Positions 14,640 through 48,595 of a stretch of 64,000 bases of DNA are shown here, piece after piece (position 1 is the stretch's first letter; the number at the start of each line of letters is the position of its first letter). The notes under the pieces were generated by a model. The model saw nothing but the letters and a program-made list of their open reading frames with translations. It ran no database searches and was not told where the DNA came from. The stretch comes from Styela clava (taxonomy: Eukaryota; Chordata; Ascidiacea; Stolidobranchia; Styelidae), in contig NC_135259.1 in assembly GCF_964204865.1 (NCBI RefSeq), forward strand, positions 3,100,001 to 3,164,000, read 5' to 3'. A program made the translations under genes and the position numbers.

Positions 14640-15567
14640 ATGGGTAAATTTGTCATCACGTACTGGGATCTACGGGGGTTTGCTGAGCCCGCAAGAATGC
14701 TTTTAGAGTATGGTGGAATAGAATATGAAAATAGACTTGTGACCGATGGACAAAAATGGTTTGCCGAAAAGTTCAGTTTGGGAATGGATTTCCCGAATCT
14801 TCCCTACATAATTGATGGTGACGTCAAACTCACCGAGAGTTGGGCTATTTACAGGTAATTGAATTTGACATGAGCTCCGGTACTATTTTTAGATTCATTT
14901 ACATAAAATGTTTATTTTAATGAAAATACTAAACACGTCTGGACCACAGACCTTAAATATTTTTCAATGATATTCCAATTAGAAACATTATCGTCCGATT
15001 AGCTAGTTTTCCGCTATTCCGATTTAATATATTAAATTGGTCTTACTTTTTGTCAATTCTGTCAAATCATATTTTGTCTTGTCAAATCGTAGTCGATGTT
15101 ATCATCGTGGGCAATTTTTTTTTAGATATCTTGGGAAAAAATTTAATCTGTTTCCAACATCGGAAGAAGACCAACGACAGGCAGATATGCTTCAAGGAGT
15201 GATAAACGACATCAGAGTCGGATTTGTCAGATATATATATGGCGCCGATCTTTATGAGAAAATCGATGAGCTCCGTAAGAACCAATCTGGAAAAGTAGAT
15301 TTGATGGAAAAATATTTGAAAGATCGGAAATTTCTGATAGGAAACGACTTGTCTTTCCTTGATTTTGCTTTGTTTGAAACCTTCGACCATCATCGTCTAT
15401 TTTTCACCGATATTTTTGACCAGTCACCCAATATTCAAAATTACATGAAAAGATTTGAATCACTACCGAGAATTGCTAACTATCTGAGTTCTGCCAGATA
15501 CAAGAAGTTCCCAATAAATGGTTCAATGGCTTCATGGGGTGGGCAAAAGGAAAACGACAGAAAATAG
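14640..15567 (+). CDS. Mu-class glutathione S-transferase, GST 1 (two exons)
   Basis: Exons 14640-14854 and 15126-15567, 218 aa; the intron splits an Arg codon (AG|gtaatt ... tttag|A, phase 2). The N-terminal thioredoxin-fold domain has the Mu signature: Tyr8-Trp9 (YWDLRG, catalytic Tyr), Trp40, Lys44, the cis-Pro loop FPNLPYIIDG (52-61) and Glu66-Ser67. The helical C-terminal domain has DLSFLDFALFETFDHHRLFF, and it ends ASWGGQKENDRK, like the WGNK end of vertebrate Mu enzymes (~218 aa). Family role: cytosolic dimer conjugating glutathione to electrophiles. The usual Gln of the Gln-Ser pair is Glu here, as in all three forward-strand copies. An AATAAA follows at 15659. A TATA box lies upstream, and the closest relative is GST 2. 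Confidence 0.95.
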
Positions 15568-21029: not shown

Positions 21030-21925
21030 ATGGGTAAATTGGTCTTCACTTACTGGGACTTACGGGGAATTGCAGAACCAGCAAGAATGCTTTTAGAGTA
21101 TGGTGGAATAGAATATGAAGATAGACGTATGAGTGTGAGCGACCACCCGAAATGGCTTGTTGAAAAGTTCAGTTTGGGACTGGATTTCCCGAATCTTCCC
21201 TACATAATTGATGGTGACGTCAAACTCTCCGAGAGTTGGGCTATTTATAGGTAATTAAATTTGATATGCGTTCCGATACTATTTTTAGATTCATTGACAT
21301 AAAACCAATGATTTTTTTAATAAAAATAGTTGAAATATTCGACAGCTAACCTCAACTTTTTTAATATTTTTTAATCAAATTCCAATTAGAAATTTATCAT
21401 CCGACTAGTTTTTTGCCTGATTTAATGTGATAAATTCGAATTCTTGAAAACTTAATTTTGTTAAATTAAATATTGTTTTCCAGATATATTGGCAAAAAAA
21501 TCAGTCTGTTTCCAGCATCGGAAGAAGACCAACGACAGGCAGATATGCTTCAAGGAGTGATAAACGATATCAGAGTCGGACTTATCAGATTTATGTATGA
21601 TGCCGATCTCTATAAAAAAATCGATGAGCTCCGTAAGAACCAATCTGAAAAAGTAGATTTGATAGAAAAATATTTGAAAAGTCGAAAATTTCTGATAGGA
21701 AACGACTTGTCTTATCTCGATTTTGCTTTGTTTGAAACTTTCGACCAACACCGTCTATTTTTTACCGATATTTTTGACCAATCACCTAATATTCAAAATT
21801 ACATGGAAAGATTTGAATCACTGCCGCCAATTGCTAACTACTTGAGTTCTTCCAGATACAACAAGTTTCCAATAACGGCTCCAATGGCTACATGGGGTGG
21901 GCAAAAGGAAAACGACAGAAAATAG
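21030..21925 (+). CDS. Mu-class glutathione S-transferase, GST 2 (two exons)
   Basis: Exons 21030-21250 and 21484-21925, 220 aa; phase-2 intron at the same Arg codon as GST 1 (AG|gtaatt ... ccag|A). Key residues: Tyr8-Trp9, Trp42, Lys46, FPNLPYIIDG, then Ser-Glu-Ser where Mu enzymes usually have Thr-Gln-Ser. It is two residues longer than GST 1 in the loop before Trp42 (SVSDHPKW). The C-terminal half has DLSYLDFALFETFDQHRLFF and ends ATWGGQKENDRK. It is the closest relative of GST 1 and arose with it by segmental duplication. An AATAAA lies at 22094-22099. Expected role: cytosolic glutathione conjugation. Confidence 0.95.
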
Positions 21926-26814: not shown

Positions 26815-27966
26815 ATGGGTAAATTTACTCTAGCTTATTGGCCTTCAAGAGGATTTGCAGAACCAGCAAGAATGCTATTAGAATATGGCGACGTTGAATA
26901 CGAGAACAAACATATGACAAGCAGGGAAGAGTGGGGAGAAATCAAGCCCAAATTGGGGATGGATTTCCCAAATTTGCCGTATATCATTGACGGTGATGTC
27001 AAACTTACAGAGAGTTGGGCGATTTACAGGTTTGTAAACGTTATTTTATCCACATCTTCAGCATAATTTATCAATGACTTTTTTACTTACACTACACGAC
27101 TGACTGTGGTGTCGCAAAACGTTTCGATGCTTAAAACTGATTTCTCGTATAGTGTTATACTTTCCGAAAATTTCGATTGCGTTCCACTTTAGCGTGCTCG
27201 ACAACTCTTATTATTTGAGGCTATTGGCAACCTCGATGATTAAGAGCATATTAATTTTCCTTGAGGTGGTATTCAATTGACTTTGTCCCATTCGTATTGT
27301 CAAAATTCTTTGACGTGTCCAATGTATTCACGTATTTGAAAATGTAAATCATGAATAAAACATAACTTATGGGGGTATTAACGGGTGACTCGGTATGGAG
27401 AATTATATAAAAATATTTGAGGTCTTGTATGAGTTTTTTATGGTGTGGTTAGGGCATGTCACCGGTAGCGATCTATCATTGCATCTTCAACTTACACTGA
27501 TATGCAATATTTTATTCGTAGATATATTGGGAAAAAATTGAATTTGTTTCCCGCAACGGATAAAGAAGCTCGGGATGCAGACATGCTACAAGGTGTAATC
27601 CAAGACACGAGAATTGGTTTTGCAAGATATGCTTATTCCCCTGACCTATACCAAAAACTAGAAGAACTTCGCAAAAATCAAGTGGCAAAAATTTCTGTGA
27701 TGGAAAAATATCTGAAAGGAAAGAAATATTTGCTTGGTGAAAAGTTGTCTTTTCTCGATTTTGCATTGTACGAAGCATACGATCATCATCGCCTTTTTTT
27801 TACTGATATTTTCGATCAATGTCCCAATATTCAACAATACATGAAAAGATTTGAATCCTTGGAACGAATCGCCGCTTACTTCAACTCCGACAGATACAGC
27901 AAGTTTCCAGTTAATGGCCAAATTGCTTCATGGGGTGGACAAAAGGAAAACGACAGAAAATTTTAA
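26815..27966 (+). CDS. Mu-class glutathione S-transferase, GST 3 (two exons)
   Basis: Exons 26815-27029 and 27522-27966, 219 aa, with the same phase-2 intron position (AG|gtttgt ... gtag|A). The domain layout matches GST 1: Tyr8-Trp9 (AYWPSRG), Trp40, Lys44, FPNLPYIIDG, Thr-Glu-Ser, then KLSFLDFALYEAYDHHRLFF and the end ASWGGQKENDRKF, with one extra Phe. It is more diverged than GST 1 and 2 and lacks their duplicated flank. Its last exon and start of 3' UTR (aaatctggcattt) resemble the decayed forward-strand GST fragments in the array at 34.8-45.9 kb. A 'ttttcacag' just upstream suggests a 5'-UTR intron. Expected role: cytosolic glutathione conjugation. Confidence 0.95.
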
Positions 27967-32068: not shown

Positions 32069-32431
32069 CTGGATTCCATAGTTGAGCGCTTATAAATTTG
32101 AAACTACACTATCATAAAAAAGGGGTCACTTGACTTGCGCATAGTACTGGCTAACGATTCATTAAAGAATGAATAAATGAAGTAGTTTTTATGAATAGTG
32201 AAGGAAGAATAAAGAGCAAGTGCAGTTTCAAGTATTTTGTGGCGTCTAGAGCTGCCGCAAAACCATGGCGGGATTTACAAACCATGGCCACTATGACCAA
32301 ACCCACGGCGACTGACTTTTTAGCTTCCACAAACCAATAGCGAGCTGCCGTGATTACGGCAGCAAATGGAATATCACCAATTTTGCTGCCGTAACCACGG
32401 CATGTGGGCTGTAATAGCAGGGCTGCCCGTG
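32069..32431. other. Intergenic next to the GST array
   Basis: Contains a perfect 8-bp-stem hairpin (gctgccgt-gatt-acggcagc, 32344-32363) and a second 'gctgccgtaaccacggca' copy close by. Otherwise nothing is recognised. The left edge of the array is near 32432, where similarity to 40525 onward begins. Confidence 0.4.
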
Positions 32432-33191
32432 ATGGTGATAAATATTGGGTAAGTTGGAATACTTTTCTTATGAATACAATTTTGATGTATTTGGGGTTAG
32501 GTTTAGGTTTAAGTAGATATAATTCCGCATGATAAACTAAAATATTGTACATGACTTTGTAAATATACCGGGCCATAAAACCATGGCAAGAGACGCCGCG
32601 GTACGTTCGTGGCAGGAACTGCCATGAAGTGGTAAGAACTGCGCCTCATAAAAAGTTCCAATATAAGCGAAGGGAAGAATTTAACGAAAATGTTTCAAAA
32701 CACTGGTTAAAACAAAAACATGACACCTCTCAACCTGTAGCATAACGTGTCAACAAAGGTGGTAGGCTATGGGAGTCGCAACTGACAAGCAATTACGCAA
32801 ACTACCCAGTAACAGCGAGGAGTCGTTGCCATCGCTCTCAGTACATTCTTCATATATCGTATTAACACCCTAGTGTTATCAAATGTTGGCAATATGCGGG
32901 CTCCTGTCAACCTGCTTTGGGTTGTGTTTAGCAGTCCCGCGAGGTATGTTTCTTAACTTGCCTTTTCTTCAATATAAGCTTTCCCGTGATTTCTCCAATA
33001 AACACTGCTGTCAAAATCTTATGACTTTGGTGTAGGTACTATCTTTGAGAGAGAGCTAGGCGAAGAGAGTAGAGAGTTTGAGCGAATTTGTTTTTACATT
33101 CAAAAATTATTTTTAAAATTGATAAAAACAAAGCCCCTGTCTAAAGTCGACTGGGCATAGCTTCCATGCCCACAATGTCACGACGATTCCT

Positions 33192-33873
33192 CTATTTCCT
33201 GTCATCATAATCCTTTCCTCCCCAGATGGCCATGGGTCCACTAATTGGAAATTTTTTGTACTTTTCGGAATTGAAGTATTTTGCCAGTTTTTCCAATGAT
33301 TCGAATCGTTTCATGTAAGCTTGAATATTAGGTGATTTATCAAAAATGTCAGCAAAGAATAGTCGGTGATGATCCAGGGTCTCAAACAAAGAAAAATCTA
33401 GGTACGAGATATCATCTCCCAACACAAAAGTTCTTGCCTTGGAAATACTTTTCAAGATATTCAATCTTTGTTTCTTGCCTTTCCTTGATTTCTTTTTGTT
33501 TTTCGTAAAGATCTGGTGAGTAAAAACTGTAGTTTAAAGTCCGGAGATCTTGTATTTCGCCTTCCAATATTTCAGCTTGACATATCTTGTTGTCTGTATT
33601 TGGCATCAGTCCAAGTTTTCGACCGAGATACTTGTATATCGCCCAACTTTGTGTTATTTTAACATTTCCATCAATAATATAAGGTAGATTTGGAAAATCG
33701 AAACCTTCTGATGTCATGCTTTGTTTGTCAGCAATCCACTCAGCACACTTTGCACCGGAAGAAGGTGATCGGTATGTTATTTCTTCATAGTCAATGTTAC
33801 CGTACACTAAAAGCATTCTTATAGGGGCACCTAAACCCCGCGGAGCCCAATACCCGAAAATAAGTTTACCCAT
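33192..33873 (-). pseudogene. Mu-class GST, copy A1, frameshifted
   Basis: Single exon, 682 bp, otherwise nearly identical to the intact copy at 41287-41967. The run of A at 33426-33429 (minus-strand T) has four bases where copy A2 has three, shifting the frame after residue 149 (...QGKNF) and giving a stop at 153 aa instead of 226. Up to that point it keeps Tyr8-Trp9, Trp46, Lys50, FPNLPYIIDG and Gln75-Ser76; the downstream frame still encodes the normal C-terminal domain. A homopolymer indel could be a sequencing error, so it may be an intact gene. Besides the indel only two residues differ from A2. Confidence 0.85.
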
Positions 33874-33991
33874 TTTGTATTTAATACCCCTGTATAGAGA
33901 ATGATTTTGTCTTGATTATTAAACTACTTATAATTCGAACAGTAAATTTGTTTATTCACCCTATGATTTCTAATCAAAAGGTATACTCGAA

Positions 33992-34036
33992 TTTTTATAG
34001 AATACGATACCAAAAATTTCCGAGTGTCTCGGAAAT
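33992..34036 (-). promoter_or_regulatory. Putative promoter of copy A1: TATA box plus dyad
   Basis: On the minus strand TATAAAAA (33999-33992) lies about 120 bp before the ATG. Just upstream is a perfect dyad, ATTTCCGAG and CTCGGAAAT separated by 3 bp (34016-34036). The same pair occurs upstream of copies B1, B2, A2 and B3 but not C. Confidence 0.55.
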
Positions 34037-34046
34037 GTTGTGTCCC

Positions 34047-34760
34047 ACTCAGCGCTGGATTAACCAATAAACAATATAAGCACATGCTTAGGGCACCAAG
34101 CAAAGAGGACAAGCACAACAAAAATTTTAGAGCAGAATTTTATATAGTTTATTGGTGTTTAATAAAATATTATACGAGTTCACCAGACGGCTCAAACTTC
34201 AAAGTGTTCGCTTATTATTCGTCTTCAAGTATCATATTAACCTTCTTTATTAAAAATAAACACTGAAACTTATTTATTGGACACGATTGGGCCTATATGA
34301 GTCGTTTTCTTAAATTGTTGTTTTTTTTCTTCCTAGTATCCTCCTTGTTGCTGCATTTTTATTTTAAAAAATTTCTTATCTATTCAACATCGATCGCACG
34401 ATTGCATTTCAACGATCTAGTGGTCAGCGACGTCGGGAGTTTTTTTGATAAGGTAGACCAGGGTGGTCCAAACCCTGTCATGCTGATACATTCCGTGCGG
34501 CTCACAGAACAATTTTAGCGTATATTTGTATCTAATAGCAGAACGTTTTCGAGTTTTTTAGCTATTCCAACTGGGGTTGGGATCCCGAGATTCAAATTCT
34601 TTTTTCTAACGCTTTGTTCCTTTATTTTAGTAAAAATACTCCTCTGTTTTCAAGCGTGGGCCATGTTATAGTAGTGACAAAACGCAGAGCGGACTTGACG
34701 CCGCGCAATCCAGTTTTTTTTTTAGCTAGGTCCCGAAATACCAACAGAGACGGACGGACG
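34047..34760 (+). mobile_element. Composite repeat piece in unit A1
   Basis: 34047-34455 matches 24807-25225 reversed, and 34457 onward starts CAGGGTGGTCCAAACCCTGT and follows the hAT-like family until about 34760, where it is cut short. Equivalent pieces sit in the next four units (around 36745-37440, 39430-40125, 42140-42855, 44840-45535). Open frames across them are transposon sequence. Confidence 0.75.
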
Positions 34761-34843
34761 GGAAGAATATTATGGAAGATAACATACATTACATTAGTCA
34801 TATTCATCAACAAAATAAAACGATAAAAAGAAAATCATTATGA

Positions 34844-35077
34844 CTTGGTGAAAAGTTTTCGTTTTTCGGTTTCGCATTGTACGAAACCTATCATTGTCTG
34901 TTTTTCGCTGATATTTTTACCAATGTCGTAATATCCAGCAGTGCGTGAAACGATTTGAATCTTTAGAACGAGTCGCCGCTTACTTCAATTTCGACAGATA
35001 CAGAAAGTTTTCAGTTAGAGGCCAAAATGCTTGATGACATGAGGAAAACGATAGCAAATATTAAAATCTGGCATTTT
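34844..35077 (+). pseudogene. GST exon relic (GST 3-like), unit A1
   Basis: Forward-strand stretch aligning with the last exon and early 3' UTR of GST 3: 'cttggtgaaaag', 'tttcgcattgtacgaa', 'cgatttgaatctttagaacg', 'gccgcttacttcaattt' and finally 'aaatctggcattt'. Several frameshifts, in-frame stops and a missing His codon make it non-coding. It runs antiparallel to the array's own GSTs and to none of them is it closest. Confidence 0.85.
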
Positions 35078-35747
35078 TCCTAAACATGCTGTATGAATTT
35101 TTGATGGTGGAAGGTTTAACAGATATGTTTGACAAAGTCTCAACTAGTTTTTTTATCTCTCATAATCTTGTAAATATTTTATTATAATTATTCTAAGCTG
35201 CCTTTGACGTTTCTGCTCCTGTTGGTATTACCTATCGCGAACTTACTACAATGCTAATAATGTCGCCTGTGGTGCAATACAGTGGTAAGCATTTATTTAC
35301 GATGGATTATATGGTTAATTATTAACTGAACCATCACTGTGAATGAATGCTATATGTGTATTTTGCAACTTGCCTGACTTAGTTGGAAGGCGACAGCGTA
35401 AGACTATAGAATATTAGTTGATTGATCCATGGATCTTCAAGTATTTATGCGCGGGCACTGCGTAAAAAATTTGGATTCGGTGACATGATGAATCAGAGCT
35501 TCTCTCTGATATCTCGAATAAACATTGCTATTAAAATCTTATGTATTTGGTGTAGATACTAACTTGGCGATATAGGCGAAAAGAGTCGAAGCAAATTTTT
35601 CTTACATTTTTTAGAGCATTATTCCGGCAGCGTGCGCGGCAGCTAATAGGGCAATGTTTTGCCAGAGTTTAACGGAGATGCGAAAGATAATTCAATACCA
35701 AATATAAAAAAAAAGATACAGAAAAATTTGTTTTAAAGCAGGCTGTT

Positions 35748-35753
35748 TTTATT
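35748..35753 (-). terminator. Poly(A) signal for copy B1
   Basis: AATAAA on the minus strand (plus 'tttatt'), about 130 bp after the stop codon, inside 'cctaataaaaacagcc'. Repeated in the other B units. The A units have a different 3' flank from this region on. Confidence 0.5.
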
Positions 35754-35880
35754 AGGATTGACAAAAAAACAAAACCGTATCTAAAGGCAAAAATAGAAGC
35801 CTTCATGTTGACTAATTGTTTCATGTTGACTGGACAATTTTCCTAGATTTCATGTCCATAATGTCACGACGACGATTCCT

Positions 35881-36561
35881 CTATTTCCTGTCATTATAAT
35901 CCTTCCCTCCCCAGATGGCCATCGGTCCATTGATTGGAAATTTCTTGTACTTTTCGGGACTAAAGTATTTTGCCAGTTTTTCCAATGATTCGAATTGTTT
36001 CATGTAAGCTTGAATATTAGGTGATTTATCAAAAATGTCAGCAAAAAATAGTCGGTGATGATCCAGGGTCTCAAACAAAGGAAAATCTAGGTACGAGATT
36101 TCATCTCCCAACACAAAGTTCTTGCCTTGGAAATACTTTTCAAGATATTCAATCTTTGTTTCTTGCCTCTCCTTGATTTCGTTTTGTTTTTCGTAAAGAT
36201 CCGGTGTGAAAAAACTGTAGTTTAAAGTCCGTAGATCTTGTATTTCGCCTTCCAATATTTCAGCTTGACGTATCTTGTCGTCTGTATTTGGCATCAGTCC
36301 AAGTTTTCTACCGAGATACTTGAATATCGCCCAACTTTGCGTTACTTTAACGCTTCCATCGATAATATAAGGTAGATTTGGAAAATCAAAACCACCTGAT
36401 GCCATTCTTTGTTTGTCAGCAATCCACTCAGCACACTTTGCATCTGGAGAAGAAAATCGGTATATTGTTTCGTCGTAGTCAATATTACCGTACACTAAAA
36501 GCATTCTTGCAGGAGCAGCTAAACCCCGCACTGCCCAATACCCAAAAGTAAGTTTACTCAT
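35881..36561 (-). CDS. Mu-class glutathione S-transferase, copy B1 (intronless)
   Basis: Single 681-bp exon, 226 aa, starting MSKLTFGYWAVRGLAAPARM. Mu layout: catalytic Tyr8 with Trp9, Trp46, Lys50, FPNLPYIIDG, Gln75-Ser76 at the glutathione gamma-glutamyl site, then the helical domain with EISYLDFPLFETLDHHRLFF, ending AIWGGKDYNDRK. The residues across the forward genes' intron site (AIFKYLGRK) are continuous here. Two residues separate it from B3 (Asn for Lys in EKQNEIK, Gln for Arg in MKQFESL). About 29 of 226 residues separate B from A copies. TATA and dyad lie upstream at 36680-36724. Expected role: cytosolic glutathione conjugation. Confidence 0.95.
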   Translation of the reverse strand: MSKLTFGYWAVRGLAAPARMLLVYGNIDYDETIYRFSSPDAKCAEWIADKQRMASGGFDFPNLPYIIDGSVKVTQSWAIFKYLGRKLGLMPNTDDKIRQAEILEGEIQDLRTLNYSFFTPDLYEKQNEIKERQETKIEYLEKYFQGKNFVLGDEISYLDFPLFETLDHHRLFFADIFDKSPNIQAYMKQFESLEKLAKYFSPEKYKKFPINGPMAIWGGKDYNDRK

Positions 36562-36679
36562 TTTGTATTAAAAACTCCTGTATAGAGAATGATTTTATCT
36601 TGATTATTAAACTACTTATAATTCGAACAGTAAATTTGTTTATTCGCCCTATGATTTCTAATCAAAAGGTATACTCGAT

Positions 36680-36724
36680 TTTTTATAGAATACGATACCA
36701 ATAATTTCCGAGTGTCTCGGAAAT
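36680..36724 (-). promoter_or_regulatory. Putative promoter of copy B1: TATA box plus dyad
   Basis: TATAAAAA on the minus strand (36687-36680) with the 9+3+9 dyad ATTTCCGAG...CTCGGAAAT at 36704-36724. Same spacing as in unit A1. Confidence 0.55.
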
Positions 36725-37525
36725 GTTATGTCCCACTCAGCGCTGGATTAACCATTAAAAGCACGTGCTCCGGGCACCAAGCAAAGAGGACAAGCACAAC
36801 ATAAATTTTATAGCAGAATTTTATATAGTTTATCGGTGTTCATTAAAATATTACGAGTTCACCAGACGACTCAAACTTCAAAATGTTCGCCTATTTTTCG
36901 TCTTCAAGTATCATATTAACCTTCTTTATTAAAAATAAACACTGAAACTTATATATTGGACACGAAGTGGGCCTATGAGTCGTTTTCCTAAATTGTTGTT
37001 GTTTTTCTTCCTAGTATTCTCCTTGTTGCTGCATTTTTATTTTAAATTTTTTTTTTTTAATTCAACATCGATCGCATTTCAACGATCGCATTTCTGACGA
37101 TAGGGGTCAGCGACGTCGGGAGTTTTTTGATAAAGCAGACTAGGGTGTTCCAAACCCTGTCATGCTGCTACATTCCGTGCGGCCCACAGAGCAATTTTAG
37201 CATATATTTGTATCTAATAGCAGAACGTTTTTTCAGCTATTCCAACTGGGGTTGGGATCCCGAGATTCAAATCCTTTTTTCTAACGATTCGTTTCTTTAT
37301 TTTAGTAAAAACACTCCTCTGTTTTCAAGCGAGGGCCATGTGATAGTAGTGACGAAACGCAGAGCGGACTTAAGTTTAACGCCGCGCAATCCAGTTTTTT
37401 ATTTTAGCTAGGTCCCGAAATACCAACAGAGACGGACGGACGGGAAGAATATTATGGAAGATAACATACATTACATTAGTCATATTCATCAACAAAATAA
37501 AACGATAAAAAGAAAATCATTATGA

Positions 37526-37759
37526 CTTGGTGAAAAGTTTTCGTTTTTCGGTTTCGCATTGTACGAAACCTATCATTGTCTGTTTTTCGCTGATATTTTT
37601 ACCAATGTCGTAATATCCAGCAGTGCGTGAAACGATTTGAATCTTTAGAACGAGTCGCCGCTTACTTCAATTTCGACAGATACAGAAAGTTTTCAGTTAG
37701 AGGCCAAAATGCTTGATGACATGAGGAAAACGATAGCAAATATTAAAATCTGGCATTTT
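37526..37759 (+). pseudogene. GST exon relic, unit B1
   Basis: Virtually the same decayed forward-strand GST 3-like exon as at 34844-35077, sharing all its disabling changes. It was therefore already dead before the array amplified. Confidence 0.85.
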
Positions 37760-38564
37760 TCCTAAACATGCTGTATGAATTTTTGATGGTGGAAGGTTTA
37801 ACAGATATGTTTGACAAAGTCTCAACTAGTTTTTTTATCTCTCATAATCTTGTAAATATTTTATTATAATTATTCTAAGCTGCCTTTGACGTTTCTGCTC
37901 CTGTAGGTTTTAACTATCGCGAACTTATACTACAATGATAATATTGTCGCCTGCGGTGCAATACCGTGGTAAGCATTTATTTATGATGGATTATATGATT
38001 AAATATTAACTGAACCATTATTGTGAATGAATGATATATGTGTATTTTGCAACTTGCCTGACTTAGTTGGAAGGCGACAGCGTAAGACTATAGAATATTA
38101 GTTGATTGATCCATGGATCTTCAAGTATTTATGCGCGGGCACTGCGTAAAAAATTTGGATTCGGTGACATGATGAATCAGAGCTTCTCTCTGATATCTCG
38201 AATAAACATTGCTATTAAAATCTTATGTATTTGGTGTAGATACTAACTTGGCGATATAGGCGAAAAGAGTCGAAGAAAATTTTTCTTACATTTTTTAGAG
38301 CATTATTCCGGCAGCGTGCGCGGCAGCTAATAGGGCAATGTTTTGCCAGAGTTTAACGAAGATGCGAAAGATAATTCAATACCAAATATAGAAAAAAAGA
38401 TACAGAAAAATTTGTTTTAAAGCAGGCTGTTTTTATTAGGATTGACAAAAAAACAAAACCGTATCTAAAGGCAAAAATAGAAGCCTTCATGTTGACTAAT
38501 TGTTTCATGTTGACTGGACAATTTTCCTAGATTTCATGTCCATAATGTCACGACGACGATTCCT

Positions 38565-39245
38565 CTATTTCCTGTCATTATAATCCTTCCCTCCCCAGAT
38601 GGCCATCGGTCCATTGATTGGAAATTTCTTGTACTTTTCGGGACTAAAGTATTTTGCCAGTTTTTCCAATGATTTGAATCGTTTCATGTAAGCTTGAATA
38701 TTAGGTGATTTATCAAAAATGTCAGCAAAAAAAAGTCGGTGATGATCCAGGGTCTCAAACAAAGGAAAATCTAGGTACGAGATTTCATCTCCCAACACAA
38801 AGTTCTTGCCTTGGAAATACTTTTCAAGATATTCAATCTTTGTTTCTTGCCTCTCCTTGATTTCTTTTTGTTTTTCGTAAAGATCCGGTGTGAAAAAACT
38901 GTAGTTTAAAGTCCGGAGATCTTGTATTTCGCCTTCCAATATTTCAGCTTGACGTATCTTGTCGTCTGTATTTGGCATCAGTCCAAGTTTTCTACCGAGA
39001 TACTTGAATATCGCCCAACTTTGCGTTACTTTAACGCTTCCATCGATAATATAAGGTAGATTTGGAAAATCAAAACCATCTGATGCCAATCTTTGTTTGT
39101 CAGCAATCCACTCAGCACACTTTGCATCTGGAGAAGAAAATTGGTATATTGTTTCGTCGTAGTCAATATTACCGTACACTAAAAGCATTCTTGCAGGAGC
39201 AGCTAAACCCCGCACTGCCCAATACCCAAAAGTAAGTTTACTCAT
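38565..39245 (-). CDS. Mu-class glutathione S-transferase, copy B2 (intronless)
   Basis: 226-aa single-exon copy with all glutathione-site residues of B1 kept (Tyr8, Trp9, Trp46, Lys50, Asn62-Leu63, Gln75-Ser76). Against B3 it differs at four residues: Gln for Arg in TIYQFSS, Leu for Met and Asp for Gly in RLASDGFDF, and Lys for Glu in RFKSLE. These lie mostly in the loop before the cis-Pro strand, where Mu enzymes vary. TATA and dyad (39388-39408) are present upstream. The unit's 3' flank is B type. Its right-hand spacer joins A-type flank near 40495, a duplication breakpoint. Confidence 0.95.
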   Translation of the reverse strand: MSKLTFGYWAVRGLAAPARMLLVYGNIDYDETIYQFSSPDAKCAEWIADKQRLASDGFDFPNLPYIIDGSVKVTQSWAIFKYLGRKLGLMPNTDDKIRQAEILEGEIQDLRTLNYSFFTPDLYEKQKEIKERQETKIEYLEKYFQGKNFVLGDEISYLDFPLFETLDHHRLFFADIFDKSPNIQAYMKRFKSLEKLAKYFSPEKYKKFPINGPMAIWGGKDYNDRK

Positions 39246-39387
39246 TTTGTATTAAAAACTCCTGTATAGAGAATGATTTTATCTTGATTATTAAACTACT
39301 TATAATTCGAACAGTAAATTTGTTTATTCGCCCTATGATTTCTAATCAAAAGGTATACTCGATTTTTTATAGAATACGATACCAATA

Positions 39388-39408
39388 ATTTCCGAGTGTC
39401 TCGGAAAT
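39388..39408 (-). promoter_or_regulatory. Upstream dyad of copy B2
   Basis: Perfect ATTTCCGAG / CTCGGAAAT dyad with 3-bp spacer, with the TATA-like tract 'attttttatag' (plus strand) just below it. Same arrangement as B1. Confidence 0.5.
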
Positions 39409-40209
39409 GTTATGTCCCACTCAGCGCTGGATTAACCATTAAAAGCACGTGCTCCGGGCACCAAGCAAAGAGGACAAGCACAACATAAATTTTATAGCAG
39501 AATTTTATATAGTTTATCGGTGTTCATTAAAATATTACGAGTTCACCAGACGACTCAAACTTCAAAATGTTCGCCTATTTTTCGTCTTCAAGTATCATAT
39601 TAACCTTCTTTATTAAAAATAAACACTGAAACTTATATATTGGACACGAAGTGGGCCTATGAGTCGTTTTCCTAAATTGTTGTTGTTTTTCTTCCTAGTA
39701 TTCTCCTTGTTGCTGCATTTTTATTTTAAATTTTTTTTTTTTAATTCAACATCGATCGCATTTCAACGATCGCATTTCTGACGATAGGGGTCAGCGACGT
39801 CGGGAGTTTTTTGATAAAGCAGACTAGGGTGTTCCAAACCCTGTCATGCTGCTACATTCCGTGCGGCCCACAGAGCAATTTTAGCATATATTTGTATCTA
39901 ATAGCAGAACGTTTTTTCAGCTATTCCAACTGGGGTTGGGATCCCGAGATTCAAATCCTTTTTTCTAACGATTCGTTTCTTTATTTTAGTAAAAACACTC
40001 CTCTGTTTTCAAGCGAGGGCCATGTGATAGTAGTGACGAAACGCAGAGCGGACTTAAGTTTAACGCCGCGCAATCCAGTTTTTTATTTTAGCTAGGTCCC
40101 GAAATACCAACAGAGACGGACGGACGGGAAGAATATTATGGAAGATAACATACATTACATTAGTCATATTCATCAACAAAATAAAACGATAAAAAGAAAA
40201 TCATTATGA

Positions 40210-40443
40210 CTTGGTGAAAAGTTTTCGTTTTTCGGTTTCGCATTGTACGAAACCTATCATTGTCTGTTTTTCGCTGATATTTTTACCAATGTCGTAATAT
40301 CCAGCAGTGCGTGAAACGATTTGAATCTTTAGAACGAGTCGCCGCTTACTTCAATTTCGACAGATACAGAAAGTTTTCAGTTAGAGGCCAAAATGCTTGA
40401 TGACATGAGGAAAACGATAGCAAATATTAAAATCTGGCATTTT
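40210..40443 (+). pseudogene. GST exon relic, unit B2
   Basis: Fourth-exon-end-like decayed GST 3-type fragment as in the other units. Just beyond it (40485-40530) the sequence changes to 'aataaatggtgataatga' repeats and then A-type flank, marking a recombination junction. Confidence 0.85.
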
Positions 40444-41286
40444 TCCTAAACATGCTGTATGAATTTTTGATGGTGGAAGGTTTACCAGATATGGTAATAA
40501 ATGGTGATAATGATAAATAAATGGTGATGGTGATAAATATTGAGTAAGTTGGAACACTTTTCTTATGAATACAATTTTGATGTATTTGGGGTTAGGTTTA
40601 GGTTTAAGTAGATATAATTCCGCATGATAAACTAAAATATTGTACATGACTTTGTAAATATACCGGGCCATAAAACCATGGCAAGAGACGCCGCGGTACG
40701 TTCGTGGCAGGAACTGCCATGAAGTGGTAAGAACTGCGCCTCATAAAAAGTTCCAATATAAGCGAAGGGAAGAATTTAACGAAAATGTTGCAAAACACTG
40801 GTTAAAACAAAAACATGACACCTCTCAACCTGTAGCATAACGTGTCAACAAAGGTGGTAGGCTATGGGAGTCGCAACTGACAAGCAATTACGCAAACTAC
40901 CCAGTAACAGCGAGGAGTCGTTGCCATCGCTCTCAGTACATTCTTCATATATCGTATTAACACCCTAGTGTTATCAAATGTTGGCAATATGCGGGCTCCT
41001 GTCAACCTGCTTTGGGTTGTGTTTAGCAGTCCCGCGAGGTATGTTTCTTAACTTGCCTTTTCTTCAATATAAGCTTTCCCGTGATTTCTCCAATAAACAC
41101 TGCTGTCAAAATCTTATGACTTTGGTGTAGGTACTATCTTTGAGAGAGAGCTAGGCGAAGAGAGTAGAGAGTTTGAGCGAATTTGTTTTTACATTCAAAA
41201 ATTATTTTTAAAATTGATAAAAACAAAGCCCCTGTCTAAAGTCGACTGGGCATAGCTTCCATGCCCATAATGTCACGACGATTCCT

Positions 41287-41967
41287 CTATTTCCTGTCAT
41301 CATAATCCTTTCCTCCCCAGATGGCCATGGGTCCACTAATTGGAAATTTTTTGTACTTTTCGGAATTGAAGTATTTTGCCAGTTTTTCCAATGATTCGAA
41401 TCGTTTCATGTAAGCTTGAATATTAGGTGATTTATCAAAAATGTCAGCAAAGAATAGTCGGTGATGATCCAGGGTCTCAAACAAAGAAAAATCTAGGTAC
41501 GAGATATCATCTCCCAACACAAAGTTCTTGCCTTGGAAATACTTTTCAAGATATTCAATCTTTGTTTCTTGCCTTTCCTTGATTTCTTTTTGTTTTTCGT
41601 AAAGATCTGGTGAGTAAAAACCGTAGTTTAAAGTCCGGAGATCTTGTATTTCGCCTTCCAATATTTCAGCTTGACATATCTTGTTGTCTGTATTTGGCAT
41701 CAGTCCAAGTTTTCGACCGAGATACTTGTATATCGCCCAACTTTGTGTTATTTTAACATTTCCATCAATAATATAAGGTAGATTTGGAAAATCGAAACCT
41801 TCTGATGTCATGCTTTGTTTGTCAGCAATCCACTCAGCACACTTTGCACCGGAAGAAGGTGATCGGTATGTTATTTCTTCATAGTCAATGTTACCGTACA
41901 CTAAAAGCATTCTTACAGGGGCACCTAAACCCCGCGGAGCCCAATACCCGAAAATAAGTTTACCCAT
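41287..41967 (-). CDS. Mu-class glutathione S-transferase, copy A2 (intronless)
   Basis: 226-aa single exon starting MGKLIFGYWAPRGLGAPVRM: the intact partner of frameshifted A1, differing from it at two residues (Val18, and Gly in LNYGFYSPD) plus the missing base. Glutathione-site residues are complete: Tyr8-Trp9, Trp46, Lys50, FPNLPYIIDG, Gln75-Ser76. About 29 residues differ from the B copies, many in 30-56, the loop near the active site. It ends AIWGGKDYDDRK. Upstream dyad at 42110-42130 with TATA next to it. The 3' flank is A type, as at 32432-33191. Confidence 0.95.
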   Translation of the reverse strand: MGKLIFGYWAPRGLGAPVRMLLVYGNIDYEEITYRSPSSGAKCAEWIADKQSMTSEGFDFPNLPYIIDGNVKITQSWAIYKYLGRKLGLMPNTDNKICQAEILEGEIQDLRTLNYGFYSPDLYEKQKEIKERQETKIEYLEKYFQGKNFVLGDDISYLDFSLFETLDHHRLFFADIFDKSPNIQAYMKRFESLEKLAKYFNSEKYKKFPISGPMAIWGGKDYDDRK

Positions 41968-42109
41968 TTTGTATTTAATACCCCTGTATAGAGAATGATT
42001 TTGTCTTGATTATTAAACTACTTATAATTCGAACAGTAAATTTGTTTATTCACCCTATGATTTCTAATCAAAAGGTATACTCGAATTTTTATAGAATACG
42101 ATACCAAAA

Positions 42110-42130
42110 ATTTCCGAGTGTCTCGGAAAT
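42110..42130 (-). promoter_or_regulatory. Upstream dyad of copy A2
   Basis: Perfect ATTTCCGAG / CTCGGAAAT dyad; TATAAAAA (plus 'tttttata', ~42086-42093) lies between it and the ATG. Confidence 0.5.
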
Positions 42131-42937
42131 GTTGTGTCCCACTCAGCGCTGGATTAACCAATAAACAATATAAGCACATGCTTAGGGCACCAAGCAAAGA
42201 GGACAAGCACAACAAAAATTTTAGAGCAGAATTTTATATAGTTTATTGGTGTTTATTAAAATATTATACGAGTTCACCAGACGGCTCAAACTTCAAAGTG
42301 TTCGCTTATTATTCGTCTTCAAGTATCATATTAACCTTCTTTATTAAAAATAAACACTGAAACTTATTTATTGGACACGATTGGGCCTATATGAGTCGTT
42401 TTCTTAAATTGTTGTTTTTTTCTTCCTAGTATCCTCCTTGTTGCTGCATTTTTATTTTAAAAAAATTTCTTTTCTATTCAACATCGATCGCACGATTGCA
42501 TTTCAACGATCTAGTGGTCAGCGACGTCGGGAGTTTTTTTGATAAGGTAGACCAGGGTGGTCCAAACCCTGTCATGCTGATACATTCCGTGCGGCTCACA
42601 GAACAATTTTAGCGTATATTTGTATCTAATAGCAGAACGTTTTTGAGTTTTTTAGCTATTCCAACTGGGGTTGGGATCCTGAGATTCAAATTCTTTTTTC
42701 TAACGCTTTGTTCCTTTATTTTAGTAAAAATACTCCTCTGTTTTCAAGCGTGGGCCATGTTATAGTAGTGACAAAACGCAGAGCGGACTTGACGCCGCGC
42801 AATCCAGTTTTTTTTTTAGCTAGGTCCCGAAATACCAACAGAGACGGACGGACGGGAAGAATATTATGGAAGATAACATACATTACATTAGTCATATTCA
42901 TCAACAAAATAAAACGATAAAAAGAAAATCATTATGA

Positions 42938-43171
42938 CTTGGTGAAAAGTTTTCGTTTTTCGGTTTCGCATTGTACGAAACCTATCATTGTCTGTTTTTC
43001 GCTGATATTTTTACCAATGTCGTAATATCCAGCAGTGCGTGAAACGATTTGAATCTTTAGAACGAGTCGCCGCTTACTTCAATTTCGACAGATACAGAAA
43101 GTTTTCAGTTAGAGGCCAAAATGCTTGATGACATGAGGAAAACGATAGCAAATATTAAAATCTGGCATTTT
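42938..43171 (+). pseudogene. GST exon relic, unit A2
   Basis: Same decayed forward-strand GST 3-like fragment, with the same stops and frameshifts as in unit A1. Confidence 0.85.
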
Positions 43172-43973
43172 TCCTAAACATGCTGTATGAATTTTTGATG
43201 GTGGAAGGTTTACCAGATATGTTTGACAAAGTCTCAACTAGTTTTTTTATCTCTCATAATCTTGTAAATATTTTATTATAATTATTCTAAGCTGCCTTTG
43301 ACGTTTCTGCTCCTGTTGGTATTACCTATCGCGAACTTACTACAATGCTAATAATGTCGCCTGTGGTGCAATACAGTGGTAAGCATTTATTTACGATGGA
43401 TTATATGGTTAATTATTAACTGAACCATCACTGTGAATGAATGCTATATGTGTATTTTGCAACTTGCCTGACTTAGTTGGAAGGCGACAGCGTAAGACCA
43501 TAGAATATTAGTTGATTGATCCATGGATCTTCAAGTATTTATGCGCGGGCACTGCGTAAAAAATTTGGATTCGGTGACATGATGAATCAGAGCTTCTCTC
43601 TGATATCTCGAATTAACATTGCTATTAAAATCTTATGTATTTGGTGTAGATACTAACTTGGCGATATAGGCGAAAAGAGTCGAAGCAAATTTTTCTTACA
43701 TTTTTTAAAGCATTATTCCGGCAGCGTGCGCAGCAGCTAATAGGGCAATGCTTTGCCGTAGTTTAACGGAGATGCGAAAGATAATTCAATACCAAATATA
43801 GAAAAAAAGATACAGAAAAATTTGTTTTAAAGCAGGCTGTTTTATTAGGATTGACAAAAAAACAAAACCGTATCTAAAGGCAAAAATAGAAGCCTTCAGG
43901 TTGACTAATTGTTTCATGTTGACTGGACAATTTTCCTAGATTTCATGTCCATAATGTCACGACGACGATTCCT

Positions 43974-44654
43974 CTATTTCCTGTCATTATAATCCTTCCC
44001 TCCCCAGATGGCCATCGGTCCATTGATTGGAAATTTCTTGTACTTTTCGGGACTAAAGTATTTTGCTAGTTTTTCCAATGATTCGAATCGTTTCATGTAA
44101 GCTTGAATATTAGGTGATTTATCAAAAATGTCAGCAAAAAATAGTCGGTGATGATCCAGGGTCTCAAACAAAGGAAAATCTAGGTACGAGATTTCATCTC
44201 CCAACACAAAGTTCTTGCCTTGGAAATACTTTTCAAGATATTCAATCTTTGTTTCTTGCCTCTCCTTGATTTCTTTTTGTTTTTCGTAAAGATCCGGTGT
44301 GAAAAAACTGTAGTTTAAAGTCCGGAGATCTTGTATTTCGCCTTCCAATATTTCAGCTTGACGTATCTTGTCGTCTGTATTTGGCATCAGTCCAAGTTTT
44401 CTACCGAGATACTTGAATATCGCCCAACTTTGCGTTACTTTAACGCTTCCATCGATAATATAAGGTAGATTTGGAAAATCAAAACCACCTGATGCCATTC
44501 TTTGTTTGTCAGCAATCCACTCAGCACACTTTGCATCTGGAGAAGAAAATCGGTATATTGTTTCGTCGTAGTCAATATTACCGTACACTAAAAGCATTCT
44601 TGCAGGAGCAGCTAAACCCCGCACTGCCCAATACCCAAAAGTAAGTTTACTCAT
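43974..44654 (-). CDS. Mu-class glutathione S-transferase, copy B3 (intronless)
   Basis: 226-aa single exon, closest to a B consensus: Lys in EKQKEIK, Arg in MKRFESL, Arg in TIYRFSS. Tyr8-Trp9, Trp46, Lys50, FPNLPYIIDG and Gln75-Ser76 are kept; it ends AIWGGKDYNDRK. The dyad at 44797-44817 and TATA lie upstream. It sits 8093 bp from B1, matching the A1-A2 distance of 8095 bp, so B1 and B3 are partners in the larger A+B duplication. Expected role: cytosolic glutathione conjugation. Confidence 0.95.
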   Translation of the reverse strand: MSKLTFGYWAVRGLAAPARMLLVYGNIDYDETIYRFSSPDAKCAEWIADKQRMASGGFDFPNLPYIIDGSVKVTQSWAIFKYLGRKLGLMPNTDDKIRQAEILEGEIQDLRTLNYSFFTPDLYEKQKEIKERQETKIEYLEKYFQGKNFVLGDEISYLDFPLFETLDHHRLFFADIFDKSPNIQAYMKRFESLEKLAKYFSPEKYKKFPINGPMAIWGGKDYNDRK

Positions 44655-44796
44655 TTTGTATTAAAAACTCCTGTATAGAGAATGATTTTATCTTGATTAT
44701 TAAACTACTTATAATTCGAACAGTAAATTTGTTTATTCGCCCTATGATTTCTAATCAAAAGGTATACTCGATTTTTTATAGAATACGATACCAATA

Positions 44797-44817
44797 ATTT
44801 CCGAGTGTCTCGGAAAT
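44797..44817 (-). promoter_or_regulatory. Upstream dyad of copy B3
   Basis: The same 9+3+9 dyad, with the 'attttttatag' TATA tract below it. This is the last unit with this promoter arrangement. Confidence 0.5.
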
Positions 44818-45618
44818 GTTATGTCCCACTCAGCGCTGGATTAACCATTAAAAGCACGTGCTCCGGGCACCAAGCAAAGAGGACAAGCACAACATAAATT
44901 TTATAGCAGAATTTTATATAGTTTATCGGTGTTCATTAAAATATTACGAGTTCACCAGACGACTCAAACTTCAAAATGTTCGCCTATTTTTCGTCTTCAA
45001 GTATCATATTAACCTTCTTTATTAAAAATAAACACTGAAACTTATATATTGGACACGAAGTGGGCCTATGAGTCGTTTTCCTAAATTGTTGTTGTTTTTC
45101 TTCCTAGTATTCTCCTTGTTGCTGCATTTTTTTTTTAAATTTTATTTTTTTAATTCAACATCGATCGCTTTTCAACGATCGCATTTCTGACGATAGGGGT
45201 CAGCGACGTCGGGAGTTTTTTGATAAAGCAGACTAGGGTGTTCCAAACCCTGCCATGCTGCTACATTCCGTGCGGCCCACAGAGCAATTTTAGCATATAT
45301 TTGTATCTAATAGCAGAACGTTTTTTCAGCTATTCCAACTGGGGTTGGGATCCCGAGATTCAAATCCTTTTTTCTAACGATTCGTTTCTTTATTTTAGTA
45401 AAAACACTCCTCTGTTTTCAAGCGAGGGCCATGTGATAGTAGTGACGAAACGCAGAGCGGACTTAAGTTTAACGCCGCGCAATCCAGTTTTTTATTTTAG
45501 CTAGGTCCCGAAATACCAACAGAGACGGACGGACGGGAAGAATATTATGGAAGATAACATACATTACATTAGTCATATTCATCAACAAAATAAAACGATA
45601 AAAAGAAAATCATTATGA

Positions 45619-45852
45619 CTTGGTGAAAAGTTTTCTTTTTTCGGTTTCGCATTGTACGAAACCTATCATTGTCTGTTTTTCGCTGATATTTTTACCAATG
45701 TCGTAATATCCAGCAGTGCGTGAAACGATTTGAATCTTTAGAACGAGTCGCCGCTTACTTCAATTTCGACAGATACAGAAAGTTTTCAGTTAGAGGCCAA
45801 AATGCTTGATGACATGAGGAAAACGATAGCAAATATTAAAATCTGGCATTTT
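45619..45852 (+). pseudogene. GST exon relic, unit B3
   Basis: Fifth copy of the decayed GST 3-like fragment. After it the flank runs on into unit C with rising divergence. Confidence 0.85.
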
Positions 45853-46642
45853 TCCTAAACATGCTGTATGAATTTTTGATGGTGGAAGGTTTAACAGATA
45901 TGTTTGACAAAGTCTCAACTAGTTTTTTTATCTCTCATAATCTTGTAAATATTTTATTATAATTATTCTAAGCTGCCTTTGACGTTTCTGCTCCTGTTGG
46001 TTTTAACTATCGCGAACTTATACTACAATGATAATATTGTCGCCTGCGGTGCAATACCGTGGTAAGCATTTATTTATGATGGATTATATGGTTAAATATT
46101 AACTGAACCATTATTGTGAATGAATGATATATGTGTATTTTGCAACTTGCCTGACTTAGTTGGAAGGCGACAGCGTAAGACTATAGAATATTAGTTGATT
46201 GAACCATGAATCTTCAAGTCTTTATGCGCGGGCACTACGTAAAAAATTTGGATTCGGTGACATGATGAATCAGAGCTTCTCTCTGTATCTCGAATAAACA
46301 TTGCTATTGAAATCTTATGTATTTGGTGTAGATACTAACTTGGCGATATAGGCGAAAAGAGTCGAAGCAAATTTTTCTTATATTTTTTAAAGCATTATTC
46401 CGGCAGCGTGCGCAGCAGCTAATAGGGCAATGCTTTGCCGTAGTTTAACGGAGATGCAAAAGATAATTCAGTACCAAATATATACAAAAGATGCAAAACA
46501 GTTTTAAAACAGGCCGTTTTTATTAGAATTGACAAAAAACGTATGTAAAGGCAAAAATTAGAAGTCTCGAAGTTGACCAATTGTTTCATGTTAACTGGTC
46601 AATTTTCATTGATTCCATTCTCAAGATGTCACGACGATTCCT

Positions 46643-47323
46643 CTATTTTCTGTCATCATAATCCTTTCCTCCCCAGATGGCCATCGGTCCATTGATTGGA
46701 AATTTCTTGTACTTTTCGGGACTGAAGTATTTTGCCAGCTTTTCCAATGATTCGAATCGTTTCATGTAAGCTTGAATATTAGGTGATTTATCAAAAATGT
46801 CAGCAAAAAATAGTCGGTGATGATCCAGGGTCTCAAACAAAGGAAAATCAAGGTACGAGATCTCATCTCCCAGCACAAAGTTCTTGCCTTGAAAATACTT
46901 TTCAAGATATTCAATCTTTTTTTCTTGCCTTTGCTTGATTTCTTTTTGTTTTTCGTAAAGATCCGGTGAGTAAAAACCGTAGTTTAAAGTCCGTAGATCT
47001 TGTATTTAGCCTTCCAATATTTCAGCTTGACATATCTTGTCGTCTGTATTTGGCATCAGTCCAAGTTTTCTACCGAGATACTTGAATATCGCCCAACTTT
47101 GTGTTACTTTAACGCTTCCATCGATAATATACGGTAGATTTGGAAAATCAAAACCTTCTGAGGCCATTCTTTGTTTGTCAGCAATCCACTCAGCACACTT
47201 TGCATCTGGAGAAGATAATCGGTAAGTTGTTTCTTCGTAGTCAATATTACCGTACACTAAAAGCATTCTTGCAGGAGCAGCTAAACCCCGCGGTGCCCAA
47301 TACCCGAAAGTAAGTTTACCCAT
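46643..47323 (-). pseudogene. Mu-class GST, copy C, nonsense mutation
   Basis: 681-bp single exon of normal length. One substitution turns the Glu codon of EGEIQDL into TAA (plus 47006-47008), ending the frame at 105 aa, within the helical domain. The rest of the frame is open to the usual end AIWGGKDYDDRK. Residues are a mosaic: A-like start (MGKL, YWAPRG) and B-like middle (SSPDAKCAEW, SVKVTQSWAIF). Its upstream flank leaves the array consensus about 50 bp before the ATG, so the TATA and dyad of other copies are absent. Both facts point to a dead gene. A read error is less likely than for an indel but not excluded. Confidence 0.85.
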
Positions 47324-47509
47324 TTTGTATTAAATACTCCTGTATAGAGAAATATTTTTATCTTGAATATTAAAATACATATAATGTTGAGGCAGAAGTG
47401 TTGGTCAATACTATTAAAAATATAAAACTCTTGGTTTCAAGTAATAACCGCCTCCTATTTCGCACAGAAAATTTGTTCATGCCCGTATCATTTACACTGG
47501 TATTACTAA

Positions 47510-47880
47510 TCGAGCTTTATAAAATGCGATCTTATTTTATATCTCTCATAGTCTTATATTGATTTTATAAGTATTCTAAGCTACCTTCAATGTTTCTGCT
47601 CCTGTTGGCATTACCTGTCGCAAACTTGCCATCATGCTAATAATGTCGCTTGCGCTGCAAAACAGTGTTAGGCTTTCACGACGGATCATATAGTTAATTA
47701 TTAACTAAACCATCATTGAGAATGAATGATGTATGTGTATTTTTCAACTTGCTTGAATTACTCAGTTGAATGCGAGAGCGTAAGACTATAGGTTTTAAGG
47801 TGATTTAACTGTGGGTCTACAAGTCTCCACGCGCGGGCGCTGCAAAAGAAATTTGAATTTGATAGAAAATGAATTTAAGT
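47510..47880. repeat. Gene-less remnant of a seventh unit
   Basis: Aligns, with more divergence, to the B-type 3' flank (for example 35155-35480): 'tatctctcata', 'gtttctgctcctgttgg', 'aacttgc', 'gagcgtaagactatag', 'gcgcgggc'. The GST, relic and composite piece that would normally lie between this and copy C are missing, so a deletion removed them. Confidence 0.8.
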
Positions 47881-48113: not shown

Positions 48114-48595
48114 CGGTATAAAAATAATAAGCATATATATGGTGTTCCATGCCCAGTTTGAGCGTGAATTTGTGGAGGTAAGTGGTGGGGACGGGAATAA
48201 ATTATAACCAAACAAATTTAGAGCCACTGGATCAGTGGAGTTATTTCAGCTAGTGGGAATCAACCGGGTGATTTTGACCAATCAAATTATAAAACAAACA
48301 CTCAAGCTCACAATCATCAAACCCTCCAAACGCGGGTGGGAGCCCCGGATGGAATACCTGACTCATTTGCGGGAGACCGCTGTAGCAAGACCAATGGAGC
48401 GGCATAACTCCTCATACTTTGAGTGTTTCCGACGGGCCGCGTCATCTATAGCGGCCTCGAATGGGCACAACCAACCCATCGAGTACTACGACCCAATTTG
48501 TCCCGATTTCATCGAGAATCAAATCGGGGCGCAGCATCTCAGCTGTTCTAGCAATGTGCTCTTGGCAAACTATGTTGATATTGCACCTAGAAAAC

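Follow-up and report, generated by a model that had tools for sequence, protein, structure and literature searches.

Six Mu-type glutathione S-transferase (GST) genes were found head-to-tail in the analyzed window (the whole 64-kb stretch of DNA), all of them on the minus strand and in the unit order A-B-B-A-B-C. BLAST comparisons within the window placed the six homologous units between 32429 and approximately 47859, and three predicted intron-bearing GST genes were located on the opposite strand. The genes are as follows:

14640..15567, plus strand: GST1, predicted gene, one phase-2 intron at 14855-15125
21030..21925, plus strand: GST2, predicted gene, one phase-2 intron at 21251-21483
26815..27966, plus strand: GST3, predicted gene, one phase-2 intron at 27030-27521
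33192..33873, minus strand: A1, Mu-type GST copy with a 1-base insertion near 33426 that disrupts the frame beyond codon 149
35881..36561, minus strand: B1, intact 226-aa Mu-type GST
38565..39245, minus strand: B2, intact 226-aa GST, gene and 5' flank B-type, 3' flank recombinant
41287..41967, minus strand: A2, intact 226-aa GST
43974..44654, minus strand: B3, intact 226-aa GST
46643..47323, minus strand: C, GST pseudogene in which TAA replaces codon 106, without the ~1.1-kb upstream insertion of the other units

The ATG codons (A1 33873, B1 36561, B2 39245, A2 41967, B3 44654 and C 47323) are spaced by 2688, 2684, 2722, 2687 and 2669 bp in succession, giving a shared unit of ~2.69 kb, and copies lying head-to-tail on a single strand at one unit length (2669-2722 bp) are the arrangement expected from unequal crossing over. 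The order of six ~2.69-kb units described in the initial annotation was thus borne out by ATG positions and unit homology, as was the equal spacing that it reported for A1-A2 and B1-B3 (8094 and 8093 bp from ATG to ATG).

Intact frames of 226 aa are present in four of the six copies: in A1 an additional base within a T run near 33426 shifts the frame, and in C an in-frame TAA replaces codon 106. The coding exon has no intron in any of the six, which agrees with the earlier description of the gene as intronless; however, a candidate 3' splice site (TCTCTATACAG) ends 16 bases 5' of the ATG in every copy, so that a 5' UTR intron is possible and the description stands for the coding part. Judging from domain and PDB matches, the array genes are of Mu type. 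A domain search with B1 recovered both N- and C-terminal GST domains (PF14497, 54.7 bits with a cut-off of 21.6; PF02798, 37.9 with 20.9; PF00043, 32.7 with 20.7), and the closest solved structures were of the Mu class, both B1 and A2 having been compared: 11 of the best 25 rows for B1 name this class, while no class is stated in the rest, and the top match (8uda) is named only GST. An N-terminal GYW motif, which contains the catalytic tyrosine, occurs in all six copies, and in A2 it aligns with the GYW of 8uda and 1b4p. The NCBIfam search gave only matches far below cut-off, no RNA family matched at gathering score, and the structure prediction (mean pLDDT 47.5) was set aside as a basis for any reading. 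A COX1 search gave no match and a globin search a single fragment slightly above its cut-off (28.3 against 22 bits), neither being informative about the source, although gene content points to an animal.

At least 21 protein matches were obtained across the 376.6-Mb assembly among the best candidates scored. Seven of these correspond to the six copies (A1 in two pieces), while the remaining 14 showed 43-60% identity over exon-length stretches; all close GST copies found among these candidates belong to the same cluster. In 8 of the 15 pairs of copies, coding-sequence divergence was 0.3-1.2% within A and B and 4.7-8.0% between types, so the units are not equally divergent. A2 differs from B1, B2 and B3 at 31, 32 and 29 of 226 residues, in line with the figure of about 29 given previously. 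The within-subtype range of 2-4 residues held for B1-B3 (2), B2-B3 (4) and A1-A2 (2, over the 149 codons preceding the A1 frameshift), but was exceeded by B1-B2 (6). Synonymous divergence (dS) was 0.105-0.121 for B-C, 0.153-0.157 for A2-B and 0.173 for A2-C, with dN/dS values of 0.23-0.30 for B-C and 0.39-0.43 for A2-B; the corresponding A1-B values (0.49-0.56) take in a codon past the A1 frameshift and were left aside. Among the B copies, coding differences (4 for B1-B3, 6 for B2-B3 and 8 for B1-B2) disagree with the distances over 1150 aligned upstream bases (windows 400-1599; 0 for B1-B2 and 5 each for B1-B3 and B2-B3), and which of the two main exchanges discussed below came first is therefore ambiguous.

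A 5.6-kb block is repeated at ~8.09 kb with 31 substitutions in 5603 positions (0.55%) and 4 gap columns, a match far beyond chance (BLAST E 0.0). The two copies of the block and the junction between B2 and A2 were delimited as follows:

32429..38034: left copy of the direct duplication, partner 40524..46128
40524..46128: right copy of the direct duplication, partner 32429..38034
40493..40540: seam between the 5' flank of B2 and the 3' flank of A2, with a 20-base unit present 2.2 times at 40496-40539

The B2/A2 seam is apparently non-homologous, with duplicated filler. The array is a mosaic, to which the seam and the following features belong:

37379..37904 (B1 coordinates): near-identical A/B upstream and spacer tract, delimited by fixed A/B sites and indels
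38034..38110: recombination breakpoint in the 3' flank of B2, delimited by two-against-two substitutions
38298..38349 (B2 coordinates): patch of five sites at which B1 equals B2 and B3 equals C

In the 3' flank of B2, C-type sequence reaches 38034 and B-type sequence begins at 38110. Between 37909 and 38034, every one of the 11 two-against-two substitutions places B2 with C, and none does so after 38110; from there on, C is the only copy to differ at 34 of the 44 substitution sites of this comparison. A recombinant unit with its breakpoint in shared sequence is what unequal crossing over would leave; conversion is a possible cause too, since B2 would look no different had B converted a former C over >2 kb. 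The five sites at 38298-38349 match neither pattern, so that an additional conversion is needed, and this patch is probably a short conversion tract. Elsewhere, 61 fixed A/B substitutions at 36570-37378 are followed by none in the next 431 bases (37379-37809), a gap not seen in 100000 uniform random placements, a control that ignores possible local constraint. The last A/B indel lies at 37401 and the next A/B type difference at 37909, in the 3' flank, which points to a homogenised tract of 0.4-0.5 kb shared by A and B.

Upstream of the genes, A and B units carry ~1.1 kb of DNA composed of a repeat relic and an inverted GST-exon fragment, while C has ~60 bp at the site:

34050..34755, minus strand: dispersed-repeat terminus of ~0.7 kb upstream of A1, in five of five A/B units and absent from C
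34844..35076, plus strand: inverted, decayed GST exon 2 fragment, 79% identical to 27733-27977, in five of five A/B units
47476..47535: site of ~60 bp in C without the insertion, gene-side homology weak and gappy

The segment 34050-34755 is a dispersed repeat with at least 52 matches listed, 6 of them inside the window (best 40 of 915 candidates scored), and among these it is 81-87% identical to longer dispersed copies. Thirteen of 17 aligned dispersed copies end at the same terminus, as do the A1, B1 and GST3 copies; other repeat copies match one another over at least 1.5 kb, so the array holds the terminal part only. At this level of identity, the relic upstream of the A/B genes is old. The homology between array and GST3 upstream regions was also considered as a shared promoter and rejected, because it consists of this repeat.

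Coding sequences group B and C against A, whereas upstream DNA groups A and B (3.7% divergent) against C (18-21%, with 52-54 gap columns); C is therefore chimeric, a B-like gene joined to a different upstream side. For this reason C was not accepted as an empty site proving late insertion, and either state may be the older. From the gene to the insertion site, C and A1 show only weak homology (score 33, where the highest of 200 shuffles reached 28). Gene, promoter and spacer, for which separate trees were initially proposed as a check, were compared one by one through informative sites and distances, and their histories proved discordant in the 3' flank of B2, upstream of the A/B genes and in the promoter of C.

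Taken at sequence level, these patterns indicate that a detoxification-gene cluster probably grew by recombination between misaligned repeats. A block of gene A and gene B is joined to the right of a B through the apparently non-homologous seam with filler (40493-40540). The ancestral order would have been A-B-C, and unequal recombination between duplicated and unduplicated haplotypes would have produced A-B-B|A-B-C. Compared with the split of A and B, the last steps are recent (0.55% against ~8%). Order, spacing and divergence classes support the layered amplification by single and multiple units proposed at the outset, but 'expanding now' is too strong, as two of the six copies are broken and a single assembly gives no sign of change in progress. 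Copy number may plausibly vary between individuals.

The same A1-A2 and B1-B3 spacing would also follow from a simple 8.09-kb duplication of A-B-C, after which the gene and 5' flank of the left C were converted by B to yield B2. The confinement of C-type substitutions to 37909-38034 and the identity of the B1 and B2 upstream flanks fit this course, yet it requires a tract of at least ~2.4 kb (38110 to 40493) that includes the 1.1-kb insertion and ends at the seam, and we regard it as unlikely, though to be kept in view. An assembly artefact, in which a pair of diverged haplotypes (flank-A-B-B... and A-B-C-flank) was joined in tandem and the repeat represents alleles, appears quite improbable. 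Heterozygosity on the scale of the 0.55% block difference is common in many animals, the seam coincides with a short tandem repeat, and the extra T of A1, in a T run, is the sort of mistake that long reads produce; however, the window contains no N, the filler joining B 5' DNA to A 3' DNA looks like an end-joining scar, and B1, B2 and C each represent a different type of unit, which leaves at least an A-B-B or A-B-C array regardless.

The origin of the array might instead lie in retroposition of an intron-bearing neighbour, the processed copy being amplified afterwards, which is distinctly unlikely. A coding intron is present in five of five plus-strand relatives of the cluster and in none of the six array copies. 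A retrogene is expected away from its parent, and the array lies ~5 kb from intron-bearing GST3, but the parent could equally be a C10-like gene. The C10 gene is split near residues 31, 107 and 147 and these splits are missing in all 11 cluster genes modelled, so that a wider version, in which the entire C13 cluster descends from one processed copy of a C10-like parent, fits as well. Yet the array keeps the candidate 3' splice site before the ATG, and the neighbours' intron site is uninterrupted in all three other loci (the C10 gene and both weak C1 matches): the neighbours may have gained the intron, and the intronless state of the array may be ancestral. In the GST protein tree six of nine inner branches were open, only the array group and the L017/L018 pair being starred, so intron polarity rests on the site comparison and not on the tree. 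It is likewise very doubtful that the ~1.1-kb insertion (repeat terminus with a TATA-like stretch plus inverted GST piece) replaced the promoter, preceding and driving the A/B amplification while the insertion-free C decayed, a reading modelled on the upstream insertion and duplication of Cyp6g1.

Growth by recombination between misaligned repeats has counterparts in known systems. The primate GSTM study describes clustered Mu-class genes in whose history duplication, loss and gene conversion all took part, with trees that differ by region, much as here, and ascribes a deletion polymorphic in people and chimpanzees to non-allelic homologous recombination (PMC5918908); the present array, in contrast, is known from one assembly, lacks a coding intron and has an apparently non-homologous seam. 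Yeast CUP1, also a detoxification gene in tandem copies, is said to form arrays that begin by unequal non-homologous recombination, according to a comparison of 101 natural isolates (PMC4232551), whereas the seam described here, from one assembly, sits inside a pre-existing array. At Drosophila Cyp6g1, transposable-element DNA likewise lies upstream of a tandemly duplicated detoxification gene, and the Accord insertion is reported to correlate with higher expression (PMC4978910); the upstream repeat of the array, for its part, is an old relic. For the anopheline GST epsilon cluster, with an extra copy in one species, the authors favour unequal crossing over, as proposed here, although those genes are of the Epsilon class with phase 0/1 introns and the array is of Mu type (PMC3242777). 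None of the paper titles listed concerns an intronless tandem Mu-class GST array.

Intact frames and an A-B dN/dS of ~0.4 suggest that four copies would continue to make Mu-type GSTs, while A1 and C may be decaying. The retained copies would raise or diversify glutathione-conjugation capacity, although two broken copies out of six count against a simple dosage benefit. The mechanism of growth is itself ordinary and of textbook kind; the array preserves, in compact and readable form, the probable growth of a detoxification gene cluster. One homologous exchange, one apparently non-homologous join and several patches of conversion can each be located with a precision of tens to hundreds of bases, and the locus would be well suited to copy-number typing in the species.

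Comparison of the window (C13:3100001-3164000) with itself placed six Mu-type GST units head to tail on the minus strand, from 32429 to about 47859, in the order A-B-B-A-B-C, with the following start codons:

33873, minus strand, ATG of A1
36561, minus strand, ATG of B1
39245, minus strand, ATG of B2
41967, minus strand, ATG of A2
44654, minus strand, ATG of B3
47323, minus strand, ATG of C

A protein search of the whole 376.6-Mb, 379-contig assembly, in which the best candidates were scored, listed at least 21 matches, of which seven were the six array copies (A1 being split in two pieces), ten were five relatives in the same cluster, matched exon by exon, and four lay on contigs C10 and C1. 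The cluster relatives were located as follows:

C13:3072163, plus strand, GST relative
C13:3088557, plus strand, GST relative
C13:3114640, plus strand, GST relative
C13:3121030, plus strand, GST relative
C13:3126815, plus strand, GST relative

The array is real and, in part, recent. The block 32429-38034 recurred at 40524-46128 with 31 substitutions in 5603 positions (0.55%) and four gap columns, and the initial reading of layered duplication, involving both single and multiple units, holds; its claims of growth at present and of copy number differing between individuals stay conjectures. In the eight of 15 copy pairs run, coding nucleotide differences were 0.3% (A1-A2), 0.6% (B1-B3) and 1.2% (B1-B2) within types, and 4.7% (B-C), 6.6% (A2-C) and 7.7-8.0% (A2-B) between types. 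At the residue level, the B copies differed by two (B1-B3), four (B2-B3) and six (B1-B2), and A1 and A2 by two in the first 149 codons; A2 differed from the B copies by 29-32 and from C by 21, and B from C by 13-16. Values of dN/dS between types (0.39-0.43 for A2 against the B copies, 0.23-0.30 for the B copies against C) fit constraint, while those within subtypes were uninformative because changes were too few. Full 226-residue frames were retained by B1, B2, A2 and B3, and two of the six copies were already broken: A1 carried one additional base within a T run, which could be a sequencing error, and lost the frame past codon 149, and in C a substitution replaced codon 106 by TAA.

B1 matched the GST_C_3, GST_N and GST_C profiles above cut-offs, and Mu class was named in 11 of its best 25 solved-structure rows, the others carrying no class; in A2, the GYW motif aligned with that of the PDB chains 8uda and 1b4p. 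All six copies contained the GYW motif, whose tyrosine has a catalytic role, and shared three extra residues directly N-terminal of GFDFPNLP, missing in all five cluster neighbours, the C10 gene and both PDB chains shown.

Each of the five plus-strand relatives was predicted to contain a single intron, of phase 2, which splits the arginine codon of WAIYR. Since this site is uninterrupted at three of three other loci, namely in the C10 gene and in two weaker matches on C1 (each with one internal stop), the array may have kept the ancestral state, the intron having been gained by the neighbours; alternatively, the array lost it. The C10 gene was interrupted elsewhere, its pieces breaking near residues 31, 107 and 147. 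The array genes are intronless in their coding sequence and may have an intron 5' of it, because the ATG is closely preceded by a candidate 3' splice site in all six copies, as it is in the plus-strand neighbours GST1-GST3.

Elsewhere in the cluster, outside the window, L017 and L018 (C13:3072163-3072997 and 3088557-3089714) form a near-identical Mu-type pair (210/220 residues), separate from the array, with one predicted intron each and a spacing of about 16.4 kb, and are another recent duplication. GST1 and GST2 (14424-15680 and 20799-22030) are an older intron-bearing tandem duplicate (77% DNA identity, 183/218 residues), and a 64-bp unit is present twice (93%) at 26456-26585, about 230 bp 5' of the GST3 ATG.

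Several breakpoints were observed within the array. In the B2 3' flank, 11 substitutions, all within 37909-38034, and a 2-base indel set B2 and C apart from B1 and B3, whereas from 38110 on no such site was found and C was the odd one at 34 of 44 substitution sites, confining the switch to 76 bases. Five sites at 38298-38349 paired B1 and B2 against B3 and C, and would need an additional conversion patch. In B1 coordinates, the upstream DNA of A and B showed 61 fixed substitutions between 36570 and 37378 and then none up to 37809, a gap that none of 100,000 uniform random placements reproduced. The C gene was B-like (4.7%), yet its upstream flank diverged from about 61 bases out (18-21% differences and 52-54 gap columns, where the flanks of A and B differ from each other by 3.7%). 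At the B2|A2 seam the match ended at both block edges with no further identical base, and a 20-base unit was repeated 2.2 times at 40496-40539.

From these breakpoints we infer a history that the array may have had. Starting from an ancestral A-B-C, a join would have brought B next to A, duplicating A-B. The 3' flank of C on a chromosome lacking the duplication would then have recombined unequally with the 3' flank of B on the duplicated chromosome, giving A-B-B|A-B-C. The data fit this order, and fit as well the opposite one, with B2 formed first and the join between haplotypes afterwards, because upstream flanks pair B1 with B2 (no differences in 1150 aligned bases, against five to B3) and coding sequences pair B1 with B3 (four differences, against eight to B2). 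The main alternative to unequal exchange is that B converted a former C, giving B2.

Upstream of the gene, each of the five A and B units carried an insertion of about 1.1 kb, which spans 34041-35149 in A1; the corresponding site in C measures about 60 bp. Common to both types, the insertion either predates the A-B split or spread through exchange. One part of it, an inverted fragment of 233 bases, matches exon 2 of GST3 and its 3' end at 79% identity; another consists of 0.7 kb from the terminus of a dispersed repeat with at least 52 matches among those listed (the best 40 of 915 first-look candidates were scored). The same terminus was found in 13 of 17 aligned dispersed copies, and other copies matched one another over longer stretches. 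Within the insertion, the repeat has a TATATAAA-like sequence, a candidate promoter element.

A second dispersed repeat, of about 290 bp, flanks the B genes on their 3' side (35493-35781 and equivalents), with 70-75% identity to at least 35 listed places outside the array (40 of 297 candidates scored); among the matches listed, eight near-equal ones at C19:5418886-6077480 share one orientation and follow each other at intervals of 77-100 kb, which would suit tandem repetition of a unit of nearly 100 kb. To the right of the array, a G+C-rich stretch (48208-50056; 0.478) has broken open frames that, on visual inspection, resemble the remains of a non-LTR retrotransposon; a Pfam search with three pieces of it gave no match above cut-off, and it contains a 143-bp tandem duplication (48596-48879). 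Two inverted repeat pairs of 73-81% identity (4322-4753 with 24065-24658, and 18343-19176 with 29155-29483) are possibly dispersed elements.

Primate GSTM genes have undergone duplication, loss and conversion, with deletion attributed to non-allelic recombination (PMC5918908), CUP1 arrays have been explained by unequal non-homologous recombination (PMC4232551), tandem duplication at Cyp6g1 goes together with a TE inserted upstream (PMC4978910), and growth by unequal crossing over is the authors' view for GST epsilon genes (PMC3242777). The Styela clava array is of the same kind as these cases.
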